Positions 1 through 12,256 of a stretch of 64,000 nt of DNA are shown piece after piece. The DNA lies in NCBI GenBank assembly GCA_016180645.1, contig JACPAV010000028.1, forward strand, positions 1 through 64,000, in the 5' to 3' direction. A program made the translations under genes and the position numbers. Within the stretch, counting starts at the first letter, position 1. Each line of letters begins with the position of its first letter. This stretch comes from Nitrospirota bacterium (GTDB lineage Bacteria > JACPQY01). The notes beneath the pieces are model-generated. The model was not told the origin of the DNA. It was given only the letters and a program-made list of their open reading frames with translations, and did no database searches.

Positions 1-88
1 CTCATCACGGCAGCAAAGAAGCGTATCGTCGGCGCATTGTGGAAGCAATGTGATCCCACTTCCCCACAGGATCGCAAGGACGAAGTAT

Positions 89-1162
89 CTACCGGGGGTT
101 GTAGACATAGACCAGTCCGCCAAACAGTTGAGGGAGGAAGACGGCGCTTCCTTCCCACTGGTACTTGCTCTTGTCTCCAAGCACTTCGAACGATATCTCC
201 TTGGAATCTGCGTACGGAGCCAGTATGTACATCCGCCCTCCAAGGACAATCCCGATGGTATCCGCAGCGATGAGTCCAAGAACTACACCCGCAGAACCGG
301 ACAGCACCGTAGAATTCCCGGACTCTGCTGGGAAAAGGGACGTTCCTCCGAACGATAACGTTATCCCACCTATCGCTGGAGGCTCCAACCGCCCCAGATA
401 GATGGTACCAAGATACCCAAACAGCTTGAGATTATTTGATCCGCTCGCTTCGATCGCCGTCCCGCTCTTCGCTGTCGCCTCCACATCCGTTGGCAAATAC
501 AGAAAAGTGAGACCCCCGGCGACATGATCGCCGATGGAAGCAAGAAAGTCGGCTCCCATGACCGGACCAGTTCCGATCTTCTCGGAAATTGAGGCTACAA
601 CCTTTCCTTGGGAGAAACTCTCAAGCTTCGCTGTTTCGTCTAGCAACCCAATTGCTACTCCGCCTGTGATCGTTGCAATCGTGGATTCGAGGCCCCGCCC
701 GAAAGCATCCGTCCTTCTCCTTCGAGAACGGAAGCCCCTTCGGGTTGGTCGTCTGGAAGCCCGTTCCAACTCCCTCGCCAAGTCGTTTCCGACCACGATC
801 AGAATCTCGTAGCGGGATTCGGACGGGAGCTGCTCAACAGAGTCGGATTCTTCAAGAAGCCCCTCTTTCAAGTCCTTGCAGGTCCATACGTGCATAGGCT
901 TGCAAAGGATCTTGGTTTTCCCCTGCACTTTCTTTGCTCGTCCGACTCCTTTGATGGTGTATCCCTTCTTGGCAAGCAATTCGCGGGTTAATTCTGCCGT
1001 GTGTTCATCGTCGGAAGCGTTCAAGATCACAATCTCCGGATTGGTGGCATAAGAGGGGAAGGGGCCAGCGATGACAACACAAAGTATGACGAGGTAGACG
1101 GTTCTACTCGTGCGTGGTTTGCGCCGAGGCCAAGCTGGAGATCCCCGTCGCCCACCGATCAC
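89..1162 (-). CDS. LytR_C-domain envelope protein, exported
   Basis: A 357-residue protein with a basic N-terminus and a hydrophobic export segment at about residues 21-39 (ending FPSYA). Residues 43-127 resemble the LytR C-terminal (LytR_C) fold: a start EIVILNAS, then a helix and KKGYTI, and an end YEILIVVGND. The same start and end occur in the exported protein at 25643-26725 (IKVLNG ... DLIIVVGND), so the two look like paralogues. An arginine-rich patch (about 138-150) links to a Gly-rich, beta-prone C-terminal half that could be a small barrel. Cys87 and Cys95 could form a disulfide. The function of free-standing LytR_C proteins is unknown; an envelope role is inferred. The first 88 bases of the window hold no gene I can support. 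Confidence 0.7.
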   Translation of the reverse strand: MIGGRRGSPAWPRRKPRTSRTVYLVILCVVIAGPFPSYATNPEIVILNASDDEHTAELTRELLAKKGYTIKGVGRAKKVQGKTKILCKPMHVWTCKDLKEGLLEESDSVEQLPSESRYEILIVVGNDLARELERASRRPTRRGFRSRRRRTDAFGRGLESTIATITGGVAIGLLDETAKLESFSQGKVVASISEKIGTGPVMGADFLASIGDHVAGGLTFLYLPTDVEATAKSGTAIEASGSNNLKLFGYLGTIYLGRLEPPAIGGITLSFGGTSLFPAESGNSTVLSGSAGVVLGLIAADTIGIVLGGRMYILAPYADSKEISFEVLGDKSKYQWEGSAVFLPQLFGGLVYVYNPR

Positions 1163-1193
1163 GATCTTTGGAAATGGATTGGAGAATTCGCAG

Positions 1194-1547
1194 TCACGCC
1201 AGTCCGAAAAGTTTGAGCATCAACCCGAATAGAATGATACCCACGATCCCCCACACGATGTCAGATCGTGAAACTGGTCGGAGAACGTATTTCCTGAACG
1301 CTTCTTCCTCTGGAGTGGTAGTTTCCTTCTCAGGGTCGGTCTGAGAATCCAACCCTAGACTCTTCCATCCTGTCTGTTTCCGGGAAAATAGCCCTGTACC
1401 TGGGAAACTTGCTTGCGTGTGAACACCCATCGGGCCGATGCCGAACCGCAAGCCCTTGACGCGGAAACTCGACCCGACGCCCTTCTTGCTCAAGTTCAGC
1501 CGTAGTCCGCCACCGAGATTGATCGATTTTCTGAAGTTTAGGCCCAT
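1194..1547 (-). CDS. DUF4236 domain protein with C-terminal membrane segment
   Basis: 117 residues. The first 50 or so match the DUF4236 pattern: MGLNFRKSINLGGGLRLNLS, then KKGVGSSFRVKGLRFGIGP and a PGTGL turn. In this family the segment is usually N-terminal and its function is unknown. Residues 97-115 (IVWGIVGIILFGLMLKLFG) form one transmembrane helix, so the protein is probably membrane anchored with the DUF4236 part on the other side of a charged linker. It is divergent from the XRE gene at 1683 and shares a 135-base regulatory gap with it. DUF4236 genes often occur on plasmids and islands, which fits the mobile element next door. Confidence 0.75.
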   Translation of the reverse strand: MGLNFRKSINLGGGLRLNLSKKGVGSSFRVKGLRFGIGPMGVHTQASFPGTGLFSRKQTGWKSLGLDSQTDPEKETTTPEEEAFRKYVLRPVSRSDIVWGIVGIILFGLMLKLFGLA

Positions 1548-1632
1548 TCGTCCCCCTTTTTCTTGGTCAATTGGTTCGATGCCAACCCCCGATCATTCTG
1601 CGCAATACCTCTTGCCTGGACGATAGCATAGG

Positions 1633-1649
1633 GTTGCCCCGTAGGCAAC
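1633..1649. promoter_or_regulatory. Inverted repeat GTTGCC-N5-GGCAAC, candidate operator
   Basis: Perfect 6-bp arms (1633-1638 and 1644-1649) around CCGTA sit 34 bases before the GTG of the XRE-type regulator and between two divergent genes. XRE repressors often bind such short palindromes to control themselves and the opposing gene. The operator role is inferred from position and symmetry only. Confidence 0.35.
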
Positions 1650-1682
1650 TCTACGGAATCCCCGTCTTGGTAGCGTCCGCGC

Positions 1683-1895
1683 GTGGAAGCGGATTACCGG
1701 AAATCGCTCGGACGGAAAATCGAGAAGCTACGGCAACGTAGGAAAATGACCACGGAAGGTCTCGCCTGGGCTTCCGACCTGAGCAAGAGCTACCTTGGTC
1801 GGGTTCAGCGAGGTGAGCGGCTCCCTTCAGTAGACGTTCTTGCGAAACTCGCCAAGGTCCTGGGATGTAAAGTCCGAGAGTTTTTCGACTTCTGA
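1683..1895 (+). CDS. XRE-family HTH transcriptional regulator (small)
   Basis: A 70-residue protein that is essentially one helix-turn-helix domain: LGRKIEKLRQRRKMT, the recognition region SDLSKSYLGRVQRGERLPS and a closing LAKLAKVLGCKVREFF. This is a complete Cro/C1-type fold with no effector domain, typical of repressors on phages and integrative elements. It starts at GTG; no ATG is available in frame. It is divergent from the DUF4236 gene and probably controls the element around it. The reading frame hits TGA TAG at 1893-1898, but open-looking sequence continues behind it (see 1896-2163). Confidence 0.85.
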   Translation: MEADYRKSLGRKIEKLRQRRKMTTEGLAWASDLSKSYLGRVQRGERLPSVDVLAKLAKVLGCKVREFFDF

Positions 1896-2163
1896 TAGGC
1901 CCCCGATTCTCGTTTTCTGTACGCGGAATCGCCTGTTGCCTCGGTGGAACCGGCGCTTGAACGGATCGACCCGGTGCACTGGATCAACACCTGGTTAGCA
2001 ATCTGAAGCCGGAGGCGCAGAAACGGGCCTGGCGCATCATGAAAGGGGCCTTCCGATAATTGCGATTGAGGCCGGGAGAAAGATTCCGAGCGTAGTGGTT
2101 GTGGCGTGGATCACCGAGGCTTTTGTCGTGAAAGTCCCCGACCTCCTCAATTTCGGGTTGTAA
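1896..2163 (+). pseudogene. Possible decayed coding remnants behind the XRE gene
   Basis: Three consecutive open stretches in changing frames read as protein-like sequence: one ends ERIDPVHWINTWLAI-stop (about 1910-2005), the next reads LKPEAQKRAWRIMKGAFR-stop, and the third reads IAIEAGRKIPSVVVVAWITE and on to a stop near 2163. Each lacks a convincing start and ribosome binding site. They may be pieces of one gene broken by frameshifts, or chance. No family is recognised. Confidence 0.25.
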
Positions 2164-2353
2164 AAGAGTGCCTCCGCTGCTTTCTCGCTAATTCTCTTTT
2201 TTTCGCGGTTTTCAGAATTTCGGGGGGAAGGAATCGGACTTGTTGATATTCTGTTGACAACGTCGAGAAAACGGGCGGTTAGGTAGCCAAGCCCGGAAAG
2301 TGAACCAAGACAAATGGTCATTTCTCAATAAACGTCAACAAACACCCCAGAAA

Positions 2354-2388
2354 AGTGAAACACGGCGCACCGTGTCTGTTTCCACTCA
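2354..2388. repeat. Imperfect hairpin, candidate double-strand origin or operator
   Basis: AGTGAAACACGG and CCGTGTCTGTTTCCACT pair around CGCA to give a long imperfect stem with a perfect ACACGG/CCGTGT core. Rolling-circle origins usually carry such a hairpin near rep with the nick site in or beside the loop. No nick-site consensus is known for this Rep, so the assignment is tentative. Confidence 0.3.
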
Positions 2389-2707
2389 GGAGCGTGAGGG
2401 ACGGCGCAAGGTGGCGATGACGATTTGATCCGTTGTTTCCTGCGCGTCGATCTCCCCTATCCCGGAAAATCTACTTCCTGTTTCCTTTGTCATGGGCTGA
2501 AGAATCTTTCAAGCTGCGAATTCTTGGACTTTTGCAATATGCACCGTATGTCACGGTACTGAAGCCGTTCGCGGTGAGCCTGCCGAGCCAAACACGGTGT
2601 ACTTCCAAGAACTTGCCTTTCGACAACCACATGGCGCACGTGCTGGGAAGCGCAGCAAAGCCCAATCTGTAGGAATCCGACGATTTTCAGAAATTGAAAA
2701 GAAGCCT

Positions 2708-2726
2708 TCTCAGGGTAAAGAAAGAG
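2708..2726 (+). repeat. 19-bp direct repeat, copy 1 (before rep)
   Basis: TCTCAGGGTAAAGAAAGAG occurs here, 41 bases before the rep start codon, and again identically at 3805-3823, 77 bases after the rep stop. The pair brackets the rep gene. Confidence 0.8.
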
Positions 2727-2767
2727 AAAGCAAGCAAATGAATCCGTAAAGAAAAAGGAGGAATTGA

Positions 2768-3727
2768 ATGGCTGAAAACAAAGGCCGCGCGGCATTCACT
2801 CCAGCGCGGCCCGAACTGAATCACAATCGGCAAAATAAACCATGGACAGGATCACGTCAACCATCATTTTCCACAACCCCTTACCTTGCATATACCGGTT
2901 CTAACCTTGCATTTCTTCCCGATGTAGATCGAGATTGGCATCTGTCAACGTGCGGAGGTCGCCTTGCGACCATTTACGTTCCATCGACCGGGAGGGCCAT
3001 CTACGTTCACGCTGGGTGTAATTCAAGAACCTGCGCAATTTCCGCCCGAAAGCGGCGACGCCGCCATTGGCGCAAATACCGCCCCGTCCTAATCACGTTT
3101 AATCACCCTAGTTTCGTCGTTCTCACCATCCGTCGAGTCCGCTTGGCGGACCTCACCGATGCCGTCGACGCCCTCAAGCGATGTTTTGCCAGACTTCGGA
3201 GGTCCAAGGTATGGCCAATCAAGGCCGGTTTTTGGTCGGTGGAATTTACCGTTGATTCCGAATCGGAAACTGCCTTCCCTCACCTCAACATCATTGGTTT
3301 GAAGGGGGGATGGATCGTCAAAGCGCGACTCAGGAAAGCTTGGCGCAGGATCACCCGGAAGGAAGGACTTGTGGCCAACGACCTCCCCTACGTAAACCAA
3401 ATCCATACACCCAAACATCGGCGAAACGTGTTCAAGTACTCAATCAAGCCCTTGCGGATTCGGAAAAGGATTCGGGTCCAAGTCGATCGAGCTATCAGAG
3501 GAAAGCGTCTTTTCGGCACTTTTGGCCCGCGATCCTATTTCCGCCTAGCACTACGGCCGAAGTCCCGAAGTGCTTTCTTTCGTCAGACACCTGACGTGAA
3601 CGACGTTATCGACAGCCTCTTCCTTCCTGTCAATGTGCCTGCCCTCGAAGAGGACATACTCAATTCGCGCGATGACGACAAGGACGAAACCTTCTGGGGT
3701 CCAGCGGAACTCTTCGGATTCGAATAA
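2768..3727 (+). CDS. Rolling-circle replication initiator (HUH superfamily Rep)
   Basis: A 319-residue protein with the three-motif order of plasmid Rep proteins. A Cys/Arg-rich segment (Cys84, Cys89, then RKRRRR) resembles the C-x-R-x-C knuckle of Rep_1 proteins. RPVLITF... at 105-120 is like motif 1. PHLNIIG at 171-177 occupies the HUH position, with Asn as the second ligand instead of His. FKYSIKP at 222-228 has the Y-x-x-K arrangement of motif 3, making Tyr224 the likely nicking residue. GKRLFGTFG (245-253) matches a conserved C-terminal block. A strong AAGGAGG lies 6 bases before ATG. It would nick the element origin and start rolling-circle replication. The atypical HxN pair makes the assignment probable, not certain. 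Confidence 0.65.
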   Translation: MAENKGRAAFTPARPELNHNRQNKPWTGSRQPSFSTTPYLAYTGSNLAFLPDVDRDWHLSTCGGRLATIYVPSTGRAIYVHAGCNSRTCAISARKRRRRHWRKYRPVLITFNHPSFVVLTIRRVRLADLTDAVDALKRCFARLRRSKVWPIKAGFWSVEFTVDSESETAFPHLNIIGLKGGWIVKARLRKAWRRITRKEGLVANDLPYVNQIHTPKHRRNVFKYSIKPLRIRKRIRVQVDRAIRGKRLFGTFGPRSYFRLALRPKSRSAFFRQTPDVNDVIDSLFLPVNVPALEEDILNSRDDDKDETFWGPAELFGFE

Positions 3728-3804
3728 CAGGATTGAAAGGTGACTGATGGGCCTAGCGGGTCGGCCCGGCGAATGCCGGAAATGCTACGTTTTAAGATTC
3801 AGGG

Positions 3805-3823
3805 TCTCAGGGTAAAGAAAGAG
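3805..3823 (+). repeat. 19-bp direct repeat, copy 2 (after rep)
   Basis: Identical to 2708-2726. The two copies are 1097 bp apart and flank the Rep gene with its leader. The A/G-rich end could also act as a ribosome binding region for the short frame at 3825. Confidence 0.8.
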
Positions 3824-3824
3824 T

Positions 3825-4007
3825 GTGGAGACAGATAGTGAAATGAGACTCCGGGCGACGAGCCGCATGAGGGCGGTGCTGTTGTCACAAGATCCGGCCG
3901 GAATTGGTGCGGTTTCCGCGATACTGCGGCGAGTCGCACTACCGCCCTACCGAGGGCATGGGAACGCGCCGGTCATCCGGAAATCCGCCCTGGAAGGGCC
4001 TTTCTGA
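3825..4007 (+). CDS. Possible 60-residue protein of unknown function
   Basis: GTG-initiated frame METDSEMRLRATSRMRAVLL and on, ending in TGA one base before the ATG of the zinc-finger micro-protein at 4009. The purine-rich AAAGAAAGAG repeat just upstream could serve as a ribosome binding site. Basic and without recognisable motif. It may be a real upstream gene coupled to the next one, or simply leader sequence of that message. Confidence 0.3.
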   Translation: METDSEMRLRATSRMRAVLLSQDPAGIGAVSAILRRVALPPYRGHGNAPVIRKSALEGPF

Positions 4008-4008
4008 A

Positions 4009-4194
4009 ATGGCCAGGAACACGAAACCTACCGAGCCGAGAGAATGCCCGGCATGTGGGCGGGAATTCTTGGTGAGCAAATGGAACGGCAAGAAACGGTA
4101 TTGCAGCCGGGAGTGCCAAACCCGTGCGGCCAGCCAGCGGCAATACGTGCAGTTCAAGGAGGCTCTCGCCGCCGTGAAGAGGTCAGCCGGGTAG
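4009..4194 (+). CDS. Zinc-finger micro-protein (CxxC...CxxxC)
   Basis: 61 residues: MARNTKPTEPRECPACGREF, then KRYCSREC and a basic helix. Two cysteine pairs (CPAC and CSREC) about 17 residues apart form a zinc ribbon of the kind seen in tiny phage and plasmid proteins. The next gene starts 4 bases after its stop, and the three small genes at 4009, 4198 and 4487 form a tight row. A DNA- or protein-binding role in element control is likely; the partner is unknown. Confidence 0.65.
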   Translation: MARNTKPTEPRECPACGREFLVSKWNGKKRYCSRECQTRAASQRQYVQFKEALAAVKRSAG

Positions 4195-4197
4195 GGT

Positions 4198-4455
4198 ATG
4201 GACACCACCACGGAGGTGAGTCCATTCCCGTCTCCGGGCGGCTGTGCCGAGCCGTTTTCAGTTGGACCCATCCAGGCGGAGAAATTGACCGGCATGAGTC
4301 GGCATTACTGGCGGCAACTTGCTTACAAGGGGGTCATTCGTTCATTCAAGGTGGGGCGTCGTCTGCTCCTTGATTGGGGCGAGGTGAAAGCCCACATCGA
4401 GAAGCACCAAGTTGAACGAAAGGCGGCGACCTCAATCGAAGAGCGGCACTCTTGA
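4198..4455 (+). CDS. Excisionase-like (MerR/HTH_17) DNA-binding protein
   Basis: 85 residues. The central block reads AEKLTGMSRHYWRQLAYKGV, then IRSFKVGRRLLLDWGEVKAHI: the winged helix-turn-helix pattern of the excisionase/HTH_17 family (helix, recognition helix, a wing with hydrophobic core, then a helix starting W-x-E-V). The N-terminal 25 residues are a Pro/Ser-rich lead. Position between rep and int fits a recombination directionality factor that bends the attachment site and switches the integrase to excision. It could alternatively be a copy-control regulator. Confidence 0.7.
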   Translation: MDTTTEVSPFPSPGGCAEPFSVGPIQAEKLTGMSRHYWRQLAYKGVIRSFKVGRRLLLDWGEVKAHIEKHQVERKAATSIEERHS

Positions 4456-4484
4456 CAACACGATTGGATATGCTACCGTTGGTA
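4452..4484 (+). promoter_or_regulatory. Promoter with overlapping palindromic operator for the 4487 regulator
   Basis: TTGACA at 4452-4457 is a perfect -35 box; a weak -10 (TACCGT) follows after 16 bases at 4474-4479. The perfect palindrome TACC-GTT-GGTA (4474-4484) covers the -10 and ends two bases before the GTG codon of the XRE gene. This looks like an autorepressor operator. Transcription would begin at or near the GTG, suggesting a leaderless message. Confidence 0.4.
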
Positions 4485-4486
4485 AC

Positions 4487-4687
4487 GTGAGCGCAAGGCG
4501 TGTCCGGCAGATTCGGAAAAGGCTTGGTCTCACACAAGCGGAATTGGCTGAACGCCTTGGAACGACACGGACAACCATTTCACGCTGGGAAGCCGGTATC
4601 CGGCAGCCATCGCGTATGGTCCTGAATGCTCTTGGTTGGTTAGTGGAGATTTCCGGGAAGTCGCTGAAAGGGGGGAAACGTGCCTAG
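4487..4687 (+). CDS. XRE-family HTH regulator
   Basis: 66 residues: VRQIRKRLGLTQAELAERLG, then TTRTTISRWEAGIRQPS and a C-terminal helix. This is a textbook XRE helix-turn-helix (LTQAELAERLG, SRWEAG). I chose the GTG at 4487 because a promoter and operator end right before it; a TTG at 4412 would add 25 residues overlapping the preceding gene. Probably represses its own promoter and sets lysogeny-like control of the element. Confidence 0.75.
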   Translation: MSARRVRQIRKRLGLTQAELAERLGTTRTTISRWEAGIRQPSRMVLNALGWLVEISGKSLKGGKRA

Positions 4688-4726
4688 ACCGACGGGCTTT
4701 TTTCTCTCCGGGGTTGCGGGGATCGG

Positions 4727-5005
4727 CTATCCAATGCCCTCCAAGCGGTGCCCGCCGACGGCCCGGATTCGAAGTTGCCCGGACGCAGGAATTTCGAAGT
4801 GGATTCGGTGCGCGTCATCCATGCGGGAGCGGAGAGCGGGCCTGCCGCCTATTTCAATTTTCTCCGTATGAAGCGACGGATGGAAAAGGTTTCCACTGGC
4901 GAGACAGCAAGCCTTGATGAAACGGGATTTCAGGTTCTTGTCCCATGAGTCCACGGTATCAAGTTCGGCAGGCGGAATGACGATTTCGAAGCGAGCGGTG
5001 GACAC
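4727..5005 (-). CDS. RelE/ParE-like toxin
   Basis: 92 residues with the compact RelE/ParE layout: an N-terminal helix with LKSRFIKACCLAS, HPSLHTEKIEI (like HPSLHLEKL in the family), then a strand series ALRSRMDDAHRIHFEI and a final RIRAVGGHRLEG (like VLLDVGHRDEVY). Family members are ribosome-dependent mRNA endonucleases or gyrase poisons; which applies is not visible. It starts at GTG, 19 bases behind the stop of the small gene at 5025-5198, and together they resemble an antitoxin-first operon that would stabilise the element. Confidence 0.6.
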   Translation of the reverse strand: MSTARFEIVIPPAELDTVDSWDKNLKSRFIKACCLASGNLFHPSLHTEKIEIGGRPALRSRMDDAHRIHFEIPASGQLRIRAVGGHRLEGIG

Positions 5006-5024
5006 GTCCGGCGTGGGCCGCGGC

Positions 5025-5198
5025 CTACCGAGCGGTCTTACGCCACTGTTTCAGTTCTTCAGGCGTAAGGGCTTCCTTGAGTGTGCGGTAACGAACGACC
5101 GGGAGCTTATCCAGCATCTTCTTGATGGCGATGGACTCCGCGCGGGTTCGCCCGTAATTGGGAACCTTCGCGGATTTCTTTCCTCTTCCGTTCTTCAC
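5025..5198 (-). CDS. Candidate antitoxin partner, small basic protein
   Basis: 57 residues from GTG, KNGRGKKSAKVPNYGRTRAE, then a helical, charged tail LTPEELKQWRK. No family is recognised. It is judged an antitoxin only because it sits directly upstream of the RelE/ParE-like gene with a 19-base gap and because of its size and charge. A GGGAG motif about 12 bases before GTG could be the ribosome binding site. The start region faces the integrase promoter across about 50 bases. Confidence 0.4.
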   Translation of the reverse strand: MKNGRGKKSAKVPNYGRTRAESIAIKKMLDKLPVVRYRTLKEALTPEELKQWRKTAR

Positions 5199-5250
5199 GC
5201 TTTCAGTGTACTCCCGGCCCGGAAGCCGGTCAAATGGAAGGAGGGAAGTC

Positions 5251-6678
5251 ATGCCTAGACCGAGGCTGAAACCTTGCAAAGGCGTCACACCGCTCAAGGA
5301 TGGCCGGTACCTGGTCCGGTACGTGGATCAATTTGGATCGGACCACAAGGAAATCAAGGCCACGCTTCAAGAGGCCATGGACCGCAAGCGGGAAGTAACG
5401 GAGGCCATCGGGCGGGGGGAACGCCCCTGGATGGAGCGGAAGGACAAGCCGGTGCTGTTCGATGAAATCGTCGCGGACAAACTGGCGGACATGGATGACA
5501 AAGGGAGAAAATCGGCGAAAAAGTATGAGGCGGCTTTCCTCACCTTCTGCGAGAAGGCATTTTCCGGGAAGCCGGTGGACTTGATTACCCCCCGTGCCAT
5601 TGAAGATTTTTTGCGGGCGCTACAAAAGGCGGATGGCGAATTCAAGGGGGCCAACCTGCACGGTCAAGGACGCGAAGGGGCCACGCTGAACCGTTATCGG
5701 GCTTTCCTCTCCGGTTGTTTCCGGGTGGCGGTGAAGAACGGGAAGGCGAAGTACAACCCGGTGTCTCAAGTGGACCGGAGGGACGAAAAGCCCCCGCGTG
5801 ACGTGTACCTGACGGTCAAGGATGAATCCGCGATCCTGGAAAAGTGTCCGGGTTGGCTCCGGCCCGTTGCGGTGCTTGGGTTCGACACGGGGGCGCGGCT
5901 GTCGGAGATTCTCGGCATTCGGTGGGAGGATGTGGATCTGGACCGCCGGGAAATCCACTTCCCGGAAACGAAGAATGACCAACCCCGGACGATTGCGATG
6001 ACGGAGAGGGTGAAAGCGATCCTTGGCAACTTGCGGTACGGCGGGCTGGTGTTTTCCATGCTCGGGCCGCGCCGGTATGGGAATGTTGAACCCGTGGTCG
6101 CGTCGGTTCCATTGGGACGTGTGTTCCTCGCCAAGCGGGATGCCGTTTCACGCGCCTTTGTGAAAGCGGCGAAGGATGCAGGTTTCGCGGATTTCCATTT
6201 CCACGATACCCGGCATGTGTGCGCTACACGGCTGGCGGAATTGGGCTTTCCTCAAAAGGCCATTGGGGAATGGCTGGGGCACTTGACGCCATCGGTCACG
6301 GCCCGGTACATCAACTTTGCAAAGGCGAAAGCTTTCAAGCAGACTATGGCCCGCGCCCTTTCCGGGGAGAAGGCGGGCGGATTGCCCCAAAATGCCGGGT
6401 TTTCCGCCCCTACCGGAAGCCTACCGGAAGCGGAAAAGATGGCTTCCGGGATGGCTCCTAACCCATTGATCTTGCTTGGCCGGAGTGGCGGAATGGCAGA
6501 CGCAGCGGACTCAAAATCCGCCGGTGGCAACGCCGTGGAGGTTCAAGTCCTCTCTCCGGCATTGGCTTCGTCATGCGAGCATTCCTTGCTCGCGAAACAA
6601 GGAAGCCAATACGGCCGGCCTCCTGCCGGGCCGCACTTTCTTCGTGAGCGCGGACATCGTTTCCGCCGAAAAGGTTGA
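5251..6678 (+). CDS. Tyrosine recombinase / integrase, reading through tRNA-Leu
   Basis: 475 residues. The start is set by AAGGAGG at 5238-5244. An N-terminal arm-binding segment (DGRYLVRYVDQFG) and a SAM-like core-binding domain (about 75-190) precede the catalytic domain. All five catalytic residues are visible: Arg216 (GARLSEIL), His318 and Arg321 (HDTRH), His344 (LGH) and nucleophile Tyr353 (TARYINF). It inserts and excises the element by site-specific strand exchange. The natural protein should end near residue 400, but there is no stop before the tRNA: residues 410-437 (GGMADAADSKSAGGN...) are the translated tRNA, and another 38 residues come from the repeat region behind it. Confidence 0.9.
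   Translation: MPRPRLKPCKGVTPLKDGRYLVRYVDQFGSDHKEIKATLQEAMDRKREVTEAIGRGERPWMERKDKPVLFDEIVADKLADMDDKGRKSAKKYEAAFLTFCEKAFSGKPVDLITPRAIEDFLRALQKADGEFKGANLHGQGREGATLNRYRAFLSGCFRVAVKNGKAKYNPVSQVDRRDEKPPRDVYLTVKDESAILEKCPGWLRPVAVLGFDTGARLSEILGIRWEDVDLDRREIHFPETKNDQPRTIAMTERVKAILGNLRYGGLVFSMLGPRRYGNVEPVVASVPLGRVFLAKRDAVSRAFVKAAKDAGFADFHFHDTRHVCATRLAELGFPQKAIGEWLGHLTPSVTARYINFAKAKAFKQTMARALSGEKAGGLPQNAGFSAPTGSLPEAEKMASGMAPNPLILLGRSGGMADAADSKSAGGNAVEVQVLSPALASSCEHSLLAKQGSQYGRPPAGPHFLRERGHRFRRKG
6479..6561 (+). tRNA. tRNA-Leu (anticodon CAA)
   Basis: Class II tRNA: acceptor arms GCCGGAG (6479-6485) and CTCCGGC (6554-6560) pair perfectly, discriminator A6561. The anticodon stem GCGGA/TCCGC encloses CTCAAAA with CAA at 6512-6514. 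A variable arm GGC-AAC-GCC is present and the T-loop reads GGTTCAAGTCC. No CCA is encoded. The gene lies inside the 3' part of the integrase frame, same strand, and marks the integration target. It is complete, so the element regenerates a functional tRNA on this side. Confidence 0.95.
6561..6610. repeat. Nested hairpin directly behind tRNA-Leu
   Basis: ATTGGCTTC (6561-6569) pairs with GAAGCCAAT (6602-6610), with an inner GCGAGC/GCTCGC stem (6575-6580, 6588-6593). It begins at the discriminator base and may help end or process the tRNA transcript, although there is no T-run. Confidence 0.55.
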
Positions 6679-6686
6679 AAGTGCGG
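6631..6686. repeat. 56-bp palindromic repeat, copy 1 (CCGCACTTTC ... GAAAGTGCGG)
   Basis: 10-bp perfect outer arms with an inner GCGGA/TCCGC stem. The same 56-bp unit lies at 10666-10721, with the same arms, spacing and inner AAGGTT. Both copies are followed by GCGGG/GCCGG-CATC-like sequence. It is a dispersed REP/MITE-like element of this genome. Confidence 0.75.
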
Positions 6687-6721
6687 CGGGCATCCGGCCC
6701 GACCGCACTTGCTTCGTCATT

Positions 6722-6785
6722 CCGACCTTCCATGGTCGGCGTCGGATGAAGCGAGGTAGTCGCGGGCTTTACGCCCGCGTCCCTT
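6722..6785. repeat. Short hairpins including a half copy of the GGTAGnCGCGGGC family
   Basis: CCGACC-N6-GGTCGG (6722-6739) is followed by GGTAGTCGCGGGCTTTACGC CCGCGTCCC. The latter matches one half of the paired-hairpin repeats at 45368-45435 and 47957-48026. No gene lies between the integrase end and the kinase stop at 6838. Confidence 0.6.
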
Positions 6786-6837
6786 CGGCGAGACGACCCC
6801 TGAAGGGTGCGGCTCCCTCTGGCAAATGGGCCTCGCT

Positions 6838-9051
6838 TCAGTCCTGCGGAGGGGGTTCGGTGGGAAGGGTGACGGTGAAGGTGGATCCCCGGCCGGGCTC
6901 GCTCTGCACGTCCACTGTGCCGCCGAGGAGATCCACGAATTTTCTGACGATGTAGAGCCCCATGCCGACCCCTCCCCGCGAACGATCGTGCTGCCTTTCC
7001 GCTTGGCGGAACATGTCGAAAATGTGGGGCCGGTCTTCGGAGGGGATTCCGATTCCCGTGTCGGCGACGGTGAGCTGGATCTTTCGCTCATCGGGGAAGT
7101 GCTGCAGGGCCACCGCCACGTGGCCTTTGTCCGTGTATTTGACGGCATTGTCGACCAAGTTTTGAAAAATATGGCGGAGCTTGAGGGCATCCGTGCGAAT
7201 CGTGGGCAGATCTTCCGGGTAGTGCCATCCCAGGTCGATCTCCTTCGCGAGCGGCGTGGAGTAGGCGGCACGGAGATCTTCCATGAAGATACGCAGGGAG
7301 ACGTCCCGTGATTCGGCGCGCGCGCCGCCCGTTTCGATCCGGGTGGCCTCGAGGATGCTGGAGATCATGGCGTGCAGGTCGCCGGCGTAGCGCATGATTT
7401 TCGCGAGCGCCGTTTGCTGATTGGTTGTGATGGACCCCAGCAGGCCTTCGCGAAGCATCTTGGCGTAACCAATCAACGCCGTGAGCGGCGTTCGAAGTTC
7501 ATGCGACATGAAGCTGAGGAATTCCGATTGAACGCGGTTGGCCTGGAGGAGATCGTCCGCCTGCCGGCTCACCTTCTCGTAGAGCCTGGAGTTGCGGATG
7601 ACCATGCCCGCCTCCGAAGCGAGACTGGACAGGAGGTCCACCTCCGCCTTGGAGAAGGCGTGGGCCGAAAAGGTGTAGACCGAAAGAACGCCCAGCGGTT
7701 CTTCCTGGGCCTCAAGGGGAATTCCGATGCACGATACGAGGCCCTTCCGTTCGAATAGATCCCGATCCAGGGTCGAAGGATCCGTCTGCACGTTCGCGAC
7801 GAACACGGGATTCTTGCCGCCCAAGGCGGAATGACAGTGACAATGGGGCGATTCCAGGCCGTGACGCCGTGCGCCTTTTTCTTCGAGCCCCCGGAGGGCC
7901 GCGGGTTCCAGTTTTCCGCTCTCCGGATTGACGAGGCAGATGCAGGCTACGGTGGGAAAGCCCAGGACTCGAGCGGATTCCTCGAGGAGGACATTGAGCA
8001 CGGCGTGGGGATCGAGATTGGCGCTGATGGCGCGGTTCACTTCCCGGAGTGTCGCCAGCCGCTCGAAGTCCCGCTGCATCTGGCGACGGGCTTCGTCCGC
8101 GTCTTTCCTGGCCTTTTCGGCCTCCGCAAAGAGTCGCGCGTTGTCGATGGCGAGGGCCGCGTGGGCGGCGAACTCGCGCGCCCGGCCGAGGTCTCCTTCT
8201 GAATACGGGCAGTGAGAAGGGCCGCCGACGAAGGTGACCACGCCGAACGTGTGGCCGCGGGCGGTGAGCGGGACATGCATGGCCGTTCGGGCGTTGGCCT
8301 TTCGCATGAGTTCGAGGTGACGGGCGTCCCGCGCGGTCTGTTCGAACAGGGCCGCCGGAATTTCGGGTATCAGCATCGGCTGCCCCGACCGTAACGCGTG
8401 TACCACGGGGTGGGACTCCTCGGTTACCGTCGGGGCATAGCCGTGCAGTTCACGAGCCAGGGCGTCCTTCTCCGGATCGTCCCTCGGGACCCAGAGATGG
8501 TTGAGCCGTCCTTCATCGTCGAGCCGATAGATCGCGCACCAGTCGGCGATCCGTTTCTCGGCCAGATGGATGATGCTGTGGAGCGTGGCATCGTAGTCGA
8601 GCGATTCGACGAGGACGCGGCCGGCTTCCGTGAGGAAGTCCGACCATCCTTCGGCCCGTTTCCGCTCGCGGCGGAATTCCGTTTCGCGAAGCTCCCGCTC
8701 GATGGCGGGCAGGAGCCGCGTGAGGTTTGCTTTGGTGACGTAGTCGGCCGCCCCCATCCGCATGGCGGCGACGGCCGTTTCCTCTCCGATCGTTCCCGAG
8801 ATGAAGATGAGCGGCGTTTGGAGTCCCGATTCCTTGAGGATCGAAAGGGCCTCCGTGCCGCTGAAGTGGGGCATGGTGTAGTCGGCGAGAACGACGTCCC
8901 AGGGGCGGGCCTTGAGGGCGGTGGTGAAGTTCTCGGAGGACTCCACGCGATCCCAGCGCGGGTCGATTCCGGCTTTGCGGAGATGGTGAACCACAATCTC
9001 CGTGTCCTGCTCGGAATCTTCCACGAAAAGGATTTGAAGCGGCTTGTTCAT
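6838..9051 (-). CDS. Hybrid sensor histidine kinase (REC-GAF-GAF-HisKA-HATPase)
   Basis: 737 residues, no membrane segments. Order: receiver domain (about 1-120; LFVEDSEQD, phospho-Asp in VVLADYTMP, Lys in YVTKAN), two GAF domains (about 145-305 and 330-490), HisKA with FMSHELRTPL (His), and HATPase_c with N box NLVDNAVKYT, G1 DTGIGI and G2 GGVGMGLYIV. An N-terminal receiver followed by GAF sensors and a kinase is typical of cytoplasmic hybrids that take phosphate from another kinase and sense small ligands or redox. I start at the ATG of MNKPLQILFVEDSE; an upstream ATG would add 24 residues without family support. A Crp/Fnr-type palindrome lies about 100 bases upstream. Confidence 0.92.
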   Translation of the reverse strand: MNKPLQILFVEDSEQDTEIVVHHLRKAGIDPRWDRVESSENFTTALKARPWDVVLADYTMPHFSGTEALSILKESGLQTPLIFISGTIGEETAVAAMRMGAADYVTKANLTRLLPAIERELRETEFRRERKRAEGWSDFLTEAGRVLVESLDYDATLHSIIHLAEKRIADWCAIYRLDDEGRLNHLWVPRDDPEKDALARELHGYAPTVTEESHPVVHALRSGQPMLIPEIPAALFEQTARDARHLELMRKANARTAMHVPLTARGHTFGVVTFVGGPSHCPYSEGDLGRAREFAAHAALAIDNARLFAEAEKARKDADEARRQMQRDFERLATLREVNRAISANLDPHAVLNVLLEESARVLGFPTVACICLVNPESGKLEPAALRGLEEKGARRHGLESPHCHCHSALGGKNPVFVANVQTDPSTLDRDLFERKGLVSCIGIPLEAQEEPLGVLSVYTFSAHAFSKAEVDLLSSLASEAGMVIRNSRLYEKVSRQADDLLQANRVQSEFLSFMSHELRTPLTALIGYAKMLREGLLGSITTNQQTALAKIMRYAGDLHAMISSILEATRIETGGARAESRDVSLRIFMEDLRAAYSTPLAKEIDLGWHYPEDLPTIRTDALKLRHIFQNLVDNAVKYTDKGHVAVALQHFPDERKIQLTVADTGIGIPSEDRPHIFDMFRQAERQHDRSRGGVGMGLYIVRKFVDLLGGTVDVQSEPGRGSTFTVTLPTEPPPQD

Positions 9052-9446
9052 GGTTTTCGCATCCGGTCTAATCGGCGGGTGGGGATGCTCCCAGACTCGT
9101 GCCACGGGCACAATACCGCACATACCCTATTCGCCGAGCAGTCCGGCACCAATGTGATGTAGATCACAAGTGATAGCACGTGTTACTTGGCGCAATTACA
9201 GTGCCATCCCTCCAAGAACTTGTTTCGAGCACACGAAAGAACTAGTAATTATTAGATGTTGGATAAATCGCCTTAGGGGCCAATGAATTCTTTCAAACTG
9301 AGAGGGTGGAGATGGGGGTACGGGGACGACAATCCTGGTCAGATTGTCACGTGGATTTGACGGGGGTGCGTTCTGTTATATGAATCACCACCCCGTCGAG
9401 GCGAGGAGCGGTGAGCGAACCTCCTCGATTCCCGTGATGGTCCGAC
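9052..9446. other. Intergenic region with CRP-like site; no gene
   Basis: 395 bases between the kinase start and the stop of the receiver gene. It contains the palindrome at 9153-9168 and an AT-rich stretch around 9240-9275. I see no supportable coding frame. Confidence 0.5.
9153..9168. promoter_or_regulatory. Perfect Crp/Fnr-family palindrome TGTGA-N6-TCACA
   Basis: TGTGATGTAGATCACA matches the E. coli CRP core consensus exactly, with A/T on both flanks. It lies 102 bases before the kinase start codon on the minus strand. A CRP/FNR-family regulator of this host is the probable binder; whether it activates or represses depends on the unmapped promoter. Confidence 0.6.
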
Positions 9447-9815
9447 TCACCTCAGCGGCAGCACGTTCTCGATGTGCTCCCACCAGCACGGTTTCTGAAG
9501 ATAGGCGCAGGCGCCCGCATCCAGCGCGGCTTGCTCGTAAATTTTTCGCGGAAGGCCGCTGATCACGAGGCACTGGACCGCCGGATCCTGCTTCTTGGCC
9601 TCGCGAATGACGTCCAGGCCGCTCCCGTCCGGCAGGTGCATGTCGACGATGATGATTCCGGGCTTCTCCCCCTTGAGCACATGGAGGGCGCCCTTGCGCG
9701 TATACGTTTGGGTGACGTCCAGTTTGTGCCGGCTGAGATTCACCGCCCACATGGCGGCGAGGTCGTGATCGTCCTCCACGATGAGAACTTTTTTTCGTTC
9801 GGTCTTGTCCTCCAC
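9447..9815 (-). CDS. Single-domain response regulator (REC only)
   Basis: 122 residues, one receiver domain and nothing else: acidic pair VEDDHD, phosphoacceptor Asp in IIIVDMHLPDGSG, and conserved Lys in LQKP. GTG at 9815 is preferred because AAAGGGGG precedes it by about 6 bases; the longer frame upstream has no such signal. Stand-alone receivers shuttle phosphate or act through protein contacts. The hybrid kinase next door on the same strand is a plausible partner although the genes are not in one operon. Confidence 0.88.
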   Translation of the reverse strand: MEDKTERKKVLIVEDDHDLAAMWAVNLSRHKLDVTQTYTRKGALHVLKGEKPGIIIVDMHLPDGSGLDVIREAKKQDPAVQCLVISGLPRKIYEQAALDAGACAYLQKPCWWEHIENVLPLR

Positions 9816-11405: not shown

Positions 11406-12256
11406 GCACGATCCCGATGCCGGCCGTCCGGCCTTCCGACATCGCCGGGAGGCTGCGGGAGGTTCGGGAGAGAATCGACCGGGCGGCGCGACGGTCCGGC
11501 CGATCGGCCCACGACGTCCGTTTGGTCGCGGTCACGAAGACGCTCGACGCCGCCGTGGTCCAAGCGGCCTGCGCGCTCGGCCTTTCGGACTTTGGCGAGA
11601 ACTATATTCAGGAAGCCGCGAAGAAAGTGGCGATCCTCGTGGGGGAAGGCGCACGCCCGACGTGGCACTTGATCGGCCACCTTCAGGCGAATAAGGTGAA
11701 AGCCGTGATGGGAACGTTCGCTTGGATACATTCCGTGGATCGGATGTCGTTGCTCGACGATCTCGCGCGTCAGGGTCGGGCCGAAGCCGCCATGCCGGAA
11801 CTCCTTTTGCAGGTCAATCTCGAACAGGATCGCGCGAAGAGCACCAAATTTGGATTTGAGCCGGCGGAGTTGGAAAATGCCCTCCATGCCGCCGCGGAGC
11901 GGCGCCTCCCCGTGCGGGGCCTGATGACCTTCCCGCCCTATTTCGAAGATCCCGAACGAGCGCGCCCGTACTACGCAAGATTGCGGGCCTTGCGCGAGGA
12001 ACTGGCCCGCCGCGATTGGGGCGAGGGGATCGAGATCCGGGAACTCTCGATGGGAATGTCGAATGACTTCGAAACCGCGATCGAAGAGGGGGCGACGATG
12101 GTGCGTGTGGGGACGTCCTTGTTCGGCGCCCGGATGGCAGAGCCGTCCCGCGACGGCCAGGACGGCCCCAAGCGGGGCGGCGCCCGGATGGCAGAGCCGT
12201 CCCGCGACGGCCAGGACGGCCTAAAGCGGGGTGGGCCGCGGAGGAGAGACGAATGA
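11402..12256 (+). CDS. yggS: YggS-family PLP-binding protein with repeated C-terminal tail
   Basis: 284 residues. The fold-type III barrel shows the PLP lysine in VAVTKT and family blocks FGENYIQE, WHLIGHLQANK, LMTFPPYF and ELSMGMSNDFETAIEEGATM, closing with RVGTSLFG. It keeps pyridoxal phosphate in balance; no catalytic reaction is known. The family normally ends near FGAR, but here about 40 extra residues follow, made of two copies of ARMAEPSRDGQDG(P/L)KRGG. This comes from a near-perfect 54-bp tandem DNA repeat (see 12131-12238). It overlaps both neighbours by 4 nt. Confidence 0.92.
   Translation: MSTIPMPAVRPSDIAGRLREVRERIDRAARRSGRSAHDVRLVAVTKTLDAAVVQAACALGLSDFGENYIQEAAKKVAILVGEGARPTWHLIGHLQANKVKAVMGTFAWIHSVDRMSLLDDLARQGRAEAAMPELLLQVNLEQDRAKSTKFGFEPAELENALHAAAERRLPVRGLMTFPPYFEDPERARPYYARLRALREELARRDWGEGIEIRELSMGMSNDFETAIEEGATMVRVGTSLFGARMAEPSRDGQDGPKRGGARMAEPSRDGQDGLKRGGPRRRDE
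12131..12238. repeat. Tandem duplication of a 54-bp palindrome-bearing unit inside yggS
   Basis: Two adjacent copies of a unit beginning CGGATGGCAGAGCCGTCCCG and containing GCCGTC-CCGC-GACGGC and a further GACGGC. They encode the repeated tail of YggS. The inner palindrome suggests that a REP-like intergenic element was captured in frame at the gene end and doubled. Confidence 0.75.

Follow-up and report, generated by a model that had tools for sequence, protein, structure and literature searches.

How does the reading frame of an integrase come to run through an intact tRNA gene, and what would become of the protein and of the tRNA once the element that carries the integrase is free? These questions are raised by the stretch of DNA analysed here (the window: positions 1-64000 of contig C28 of genome G000, starting at the contig's first base), where a tyrosine-recombinase integrase gene (int) enters a tRNA-Leu(CAA) gene on the same strand and ends beyond it (Table 1). 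Indeed, the frame is preceded by a good ribosome-binding site (ggaaggaggga) and stays open for 475 codons, with no stop before the tRNA, as the initial annotation of this locus had claimed. Counting from the ATG at 5251, residues 410-437 are encoded by the tRNA and 38 more follow, also as claimed. That the frame ends in repeat DNA was likewise borne out, as the genome carries partial copies of the stretch behind the tRNA at 14 further places, with 72-96% identity.

Table 1. Coordinates in the window of the integrase gene, the right-hand element junction and the rebuilt tRNA.
Feature	Position	Strand	Basis or remark
int (tyrosine-recombinase integrase), integrated state	5251..6678	+	475 codons/475 aa; ORF list
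Integrated element, right-hand part	1..6475		Left end on contig C49; window begins at contig end
att core, right junction, 43 bp	6476..6518	+	Identical to left-junction copy G000:C49:2067-2025(-)
7-nt anticodon loop CTCAAAA, probable strand-exchange interval	6510..6516	+	In each of the genome's four elements, att-copy identity stops 0-2 nt after the loop
Two head-to-tail CCTACCGGAAG within the int coding sequence, candidate arm-type Int sites	6409..6430	+	Repeat search
tRNA-Leu(CAA), rebuilt: 5′ half (to nt 40) from element, rest chromosomal	6479..6561	+	ARAGORN; Rfam RF00005, 56.4 bits; four-att-site test
Dispersed chromosomal repeats behind tRNA	6562..6760		Encode last 38 Int residues when integrated; repeat search

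The product (Int) is a tyrosine recombinase with intact catalytic residues: positions 188-358 match the Pfam family Phage_integrase (PF00589, E 4.9e-22), Int also matches a PHROG integrase (E 1.1e-56), and R216, K241, H318, R321 and Y353 are invariant in 17 sequences comprising Int and its relatives. Using this 17-sequence alignment, AlphaFold2 predicts residues 1-373 to be mostly folded, with a poorly predicted stretch at 271-285, and residues 374-475 to be disordered (pLDDT < 50). Close relatives of Int were not found in the genome and viral collections, a tblastn search of plasmids and phages returned only matches below ~27% identity among the matches listed, and in a tree Int sits on a long branch with weak placement.

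The suggestion that an element has integrated at this site is supported by a second contig, C49, which carries an identical copy of the 43-bp core along with arm repeats that occur on both sides. The core consists of 3 bp plus tRNA nucleotides 1-40 and ends 2 nt past the anticodon loop. Its copy on C49 lies 2 kb from that contig's end, between chromosomal DNA bearing large non-element genes and DNA of the element; the DNA flanking the two core copies is non-homologous, with chromosome and element on the expected sides. Part of the tRNA is therefore directly repeated at two ends, on different contigs, with the tRNA intact at one of them, and, with the two contigs in the order that we infer, the displaced tRNA 5′ end lies upstream of the intact gene and shares its orientation. 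Similarly, the pair of CCTACCGGAAG sites within the 3′ end of int also occurs in the other arm (C49:1866-1887; blastn gives 91% over window positions 6397-6430). The C49 and C28 junctions would most simply be the left and right ends of one element. Because they lie on separate contigs, with a presumed rather than sequenced connection between C49:1 and C28:1, they are linked by sequence logic and not by one continuous contig. The element would measure ~8.5 kb if these contigs abut and would otherwise be longer. C49:1 and window position 1 may abut, as a minus-strand frame spans the putative join with its start codon at the join (MSEIEGQG...), which would give an element of ~8.54 kb. Besides int, the element carries a Rep_1-like gene at 2768-3727 (under the Pfam cut-off), a DUF4236 gene at 1194-1547 and a gene for an HTH regulator at 4412-4687. 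The displaced tRNA half is directly adjoined by three repeats of ~71 bp that contain a palindrome, for example GCAGACnTCCnTGTCTGC (G000:C49:2061-2277, L009), and related units also follow the intact tRNA and recur at other genomic sites.

To follow the consequences of integration we rejoined the arms in silico. Of the four att sites scored with ARAGORN, the reconstructed attB is an intact tRNA-Leu(CAA), and attP and attL score as no tRNA. At the predicted attP junction CTCAAAATC is joined to GAGTGGTGACAG, and the int frame passes across it. Residues 1-423 of Int are common to both states; integrated Int has 52 residues after 423, and in the free circle these are replaced by 19 codons in the other arm, SGDSESVSTQINSDHKNSP, followed by a stop. 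Computed lengths of 475 and 442 aa thus support the idea that integrated and excised Int have different tails, and integration provides int with a new 3′ end. Integration leaves the gene unsplit, with residues 1-423, including the folded 1-373, in one frame. Both junctions, the core, the arm repeats, the two Int ends, and the loss and regain of the tRNA can all be demonstrated at the level of sequence. One tRNA-Leu(CAA) of this sequence was detected in the genome by a pattern search, in which sequence variants of that tRNA fall outside the pattern.

The arrangement that very probably accounts for these data is that the window holds the right-hand junction of an element that has integrated site-specifically and replaced the 5′ half of its target tRNA, and that its int frame crosses its own attP core, because the int stop codon lies on the core's far side. 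In this arrangement int would be directed towards the 5′ end of the tRNA, and the final portion of the gene would double as one attP arm. In the free circle, translation of Int would proceed through the tRNA 5′ half and terminate in the other arm, and recombination, probably across the anticodon loop, would lead Int instead through the rebuilt tRNA-Leu(CAA) into the host repeats. The int transcript would presumably then also be a tRNA precursor. That a frame can cross the tRNA is not surprising, because all three sense frames of tRNA-Leu(CAA) are open, as are 43% of the sense frames across a sample of 87 tRNAs and 24/36 for tRNA-Leu. The unusual point is the absence of a preceding stop.

This point is illustrated by the other elements of the genome, which carries four of the 5′-half type: the window element (C28/C49) and the C8, C6 and C24 elements. 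In the C8 element, the int stop falls 8 nt before a tRNA-Gln and the displaced 5′ half lies 7,948 bp away; in the C6 element, the stop falls ~30 nt before a tRNA-Met and the displaced 5′ half lies 16,826 bp away. Each of these two is contained in a single contig, on which the displaced 5′ half is directly seen upstream of the intact tRNA and in its orientation. The C24 element, at a tRNA-Leu(UAA), is decayed; its int keeps the start and the tail, with the middle lost, and its far end is homologous to the C49 end. The C24 int is nonetheless open into its tRNA and conserves the CCTACCGGAAG pair of the int 3′ end, and among the integrases surveyed only this decayed gene and the window int show sense read-through into a tRNA. 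Both frames are also open across the core into the other arm, where both give DSESV. The elements differ in cargo as well: the C8 element (L036) encodes a Prim-Pol/AAA replication protein and a trypsin-like protease at 4992-6974 and 8666-9634, and the window element has the Rep_1-like protein instead.

Integrase 3′ ends were also compared more widely. The layout toward a tRNA 5′ end recurs: eight other integrases, two in this genome and six in relatives, face a tRNA 5′ end in the sense orientation. The read-through is not shared, as all eight stop 8-46 nt short of the tRNA. For the six relatives from Acidobacteriota and Rokubacteria (L042, L043, L044, L046, L055 and L059) the distance is 10-45 nt, and their assignment to this class is by layout, because displaced 5′ fragments were not found within the stretches of DNA analysed around them. 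Among ~130 other integrase 3′ ends (78 genome loci and 56 viral), none reads through into a tRNA in sense; the same survey included an antisense overlap (L098) and a second, weak one (L167). We also looked for an empty site by means of the flanking kinase. In a search of 98 genomes, of which 97 are the source genome itself or relatives that share only its domain, the sole other genome of the family gave no close match, so that no close relative with an empty site came to light; the lineage is very sparsely represented.

It had also been claimed that the tRNA promoter must lie in the int gene. This was not established, as scans for a consensus sigma-70 promoter came up empty both on the + strand of 5100-6900 and in the 120 nt before the tRNA. 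In fact, neither C28, nor its native side on C49, nor C24 gave a promoter score above that of shuffled sequence, in a scoring scheme with approximate E. coli weights that may not suit this lineage. The same scheme identified sigma-70-like promoters on the native sides of the C8 (TTGAAA-16-TACCCT) and C6 (TTGACA-17-CATTTT) elements, and a promoter-like sequence, TTGTCA-17-TAAGGT, inside the int 3′ end of the C8 element. The tRNA may therefore be cut out of the int transcript, which from the sequence is as possible as transcription from an internal promoter.

What, then, would the read-through do? The suggested link between the int message, tRNA production and the state of the element is possible, and one can imagine a specific form of it. 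In the integrated state the int mRNA would hold a full pre-tRNA, and RNase P cleavage at 6478/6479 would leave codons 1-409 without a stop, so that tmRNA rescue would degrade Int; in the free circle the tRNA would be incomplete, the int mRNA whole, and a 442-aa Int would be made. This mechanism is compatible with the anatomy described above and competes only with the view that the read-through is a by-product. It finds encouragement in the shared strand of int and tRNA with no stop between them, in the predicted fold of an int-mRNA segment (6420-6600), which includes the tRNA stems, in an attP that holds no tRNA, in a host tmRNA gene (C63:7144-7493, 150 bits), and in the same open layout of C24. 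However, near relatives stop before the tRNA, so that their int message would stay intact after the cut and the effect would not be conserved, and a promoter dedicated to the tRNA would mean that int mRNA is not the source of most of it. We found no literature match on RNase P or nonstop control of an integrase, and we regard the mechanism as unlikely; that the rebuilt tRNA serves as an integration-dependent off-switch for int, such that tRNA maturation stabilises the integrated state, seems to us improbable too. An equally doubtful proposal places the effect in the protein, with the swapped C-terminus altering recombinase activity so that integration from the circle is favoured and the integrated state is stable. 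The tails do differ by state, the frames of both C28 and C24 are open across the core to the same DSESV, and the Mx8 integrase provides a precedent, with reduced activity reported after its tail swap in the account cited (PMC4701971). Yet the part of Int that changes begins at 424, within a tail predicted to be disordered from 374, and in the tail shared by C28 and C24 (44 codons) 14 differences change the amino acid and 7 are silent, which is no sign of strong constraint on the protein, with the caveat that C24 is a decayed copy. Given the disorder predicted for the variable tail, we think a tail switch unlikely; by itself the swap would probably change little, as the changed part lies ~50 residues past the folded domain.

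Two further accounts were weighed. The eight relatives that stop 8-46 nt before the tRNA might suggest that the window int has lost its stop through mutation or sequencing error, or that the element is dead, but the diverged C24 copy (~81% DNA identity) independently lacks a stop in this stretch, as far as its tRNA and into it, so that a sequencing error is unlikely, and the catalytic residues and both att arms are intact; we consider this account quite improbable. Still further from the data is the notion that no integration took place and that int and the tRNA are neighbours by chance. No point in its favour was found, it conflicts with the exact displaced tRNA 5′ half and arm DNA on C49 and with three sister elements of the same layout, and the attL copy already refutes it unless C49 is contamination. 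Rather than by a conserved switch, the read-through is most likely explained by one element lineage having packed attP into the 3′ end of its int gene. Such packing is a habit of these elements, because the C8 element, too, has a repeat common to its two arms inside the 3′ end of int. Functional coupling is weakened by the stops of the relatives before their tRNAs and by the predicted disorder of the variable tail.

The same-strand read-through of int into a tRNA 5′ half is a new version of an arrangement known from a few phages and other mobile elements. Integrases of Mx8 and SSV are described as extending across attP (PMC4383910), and the Mx8 tyrosine integrase gains a new 3′ end on integration, according to the passages cited (PMC6070905, PMC4701971). 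The window resembles Mx8 in that the frame crosses the att core and int acquires a new end. In Mx8, however, 112 residues are reported to be replaced by 13, as against 19 by 52 here, and the tRNA-like stretch within int is antisense and resembles a 3′ half (L041, about 1444-1490; read from the Mx8 sequence, with the host tRNA not compared), whereas in the window the tRNA lies on the int strand and contributes its 5′ half. In the SSV-type archaeal "suicidal" integrases att likewise lies within int (PMC8371274), but integration splits the gene, whereas the window integrase retains its whole folded part. Similarly, streptococcal ICEs integrated in rumA have att within int and a different C-terminus when excised (PMC4701971), but they employ a serine recombinase and a protein-gene target with no tRNA. 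Islands that replace a tRNA 5′ part and leave a displaced 5′ fragment at the far end are on record (PMC4383910, PMC6563490), and the passages cited do not mention int read-through into the tRNA for this class. Such 5′-fragment islands make up 159/3,919 entries in Islander (~4%) according to one of these sources (PMC4383910), and the other, with Zhao and Williams 2002 among the references given, describes recombination with a tRNA 5′ part as considerably less frequent (PMC6563490). We found no description of a same-strand int/tRNA overlap in the open-access literature, a scope that leaves out older primary papers. The window thus joins att inside int with tRNA 5′-half replacement in the sense orientation, and therefore a full-length int message contains the tRNA. 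This raises the question of whether host tRNA processing controls the integrase of a mobile element. It does so in a sparsely sampled bacterial lineage with four 5′-half elements, and related integrases of Acidobacteriota and Rokubacteria share the layout.

Several other loci encountered in these searches deserve mention. Phage APSE-7, whose attP is annotated as a tRNA-Arg 5′ end (L038:2514-2575), was set outside this class because that sequence resembles a tRNA 3′ half in the antisense direction. The antisense overlap in the survey comes from a Methyloglobulus MAG, where an integrase overlaps the 3′ end of a tRNA-Ser (L098:1748-1826), as in Mx8. In the acidobacterial locus L055, int runs into the 5′ end of a tRNA-Arg (3425-3500) and a displaced 3′ half lies 8.4 kb downstream (11839-11883), so that two elements of opposite type may perhaps share one tRNA.
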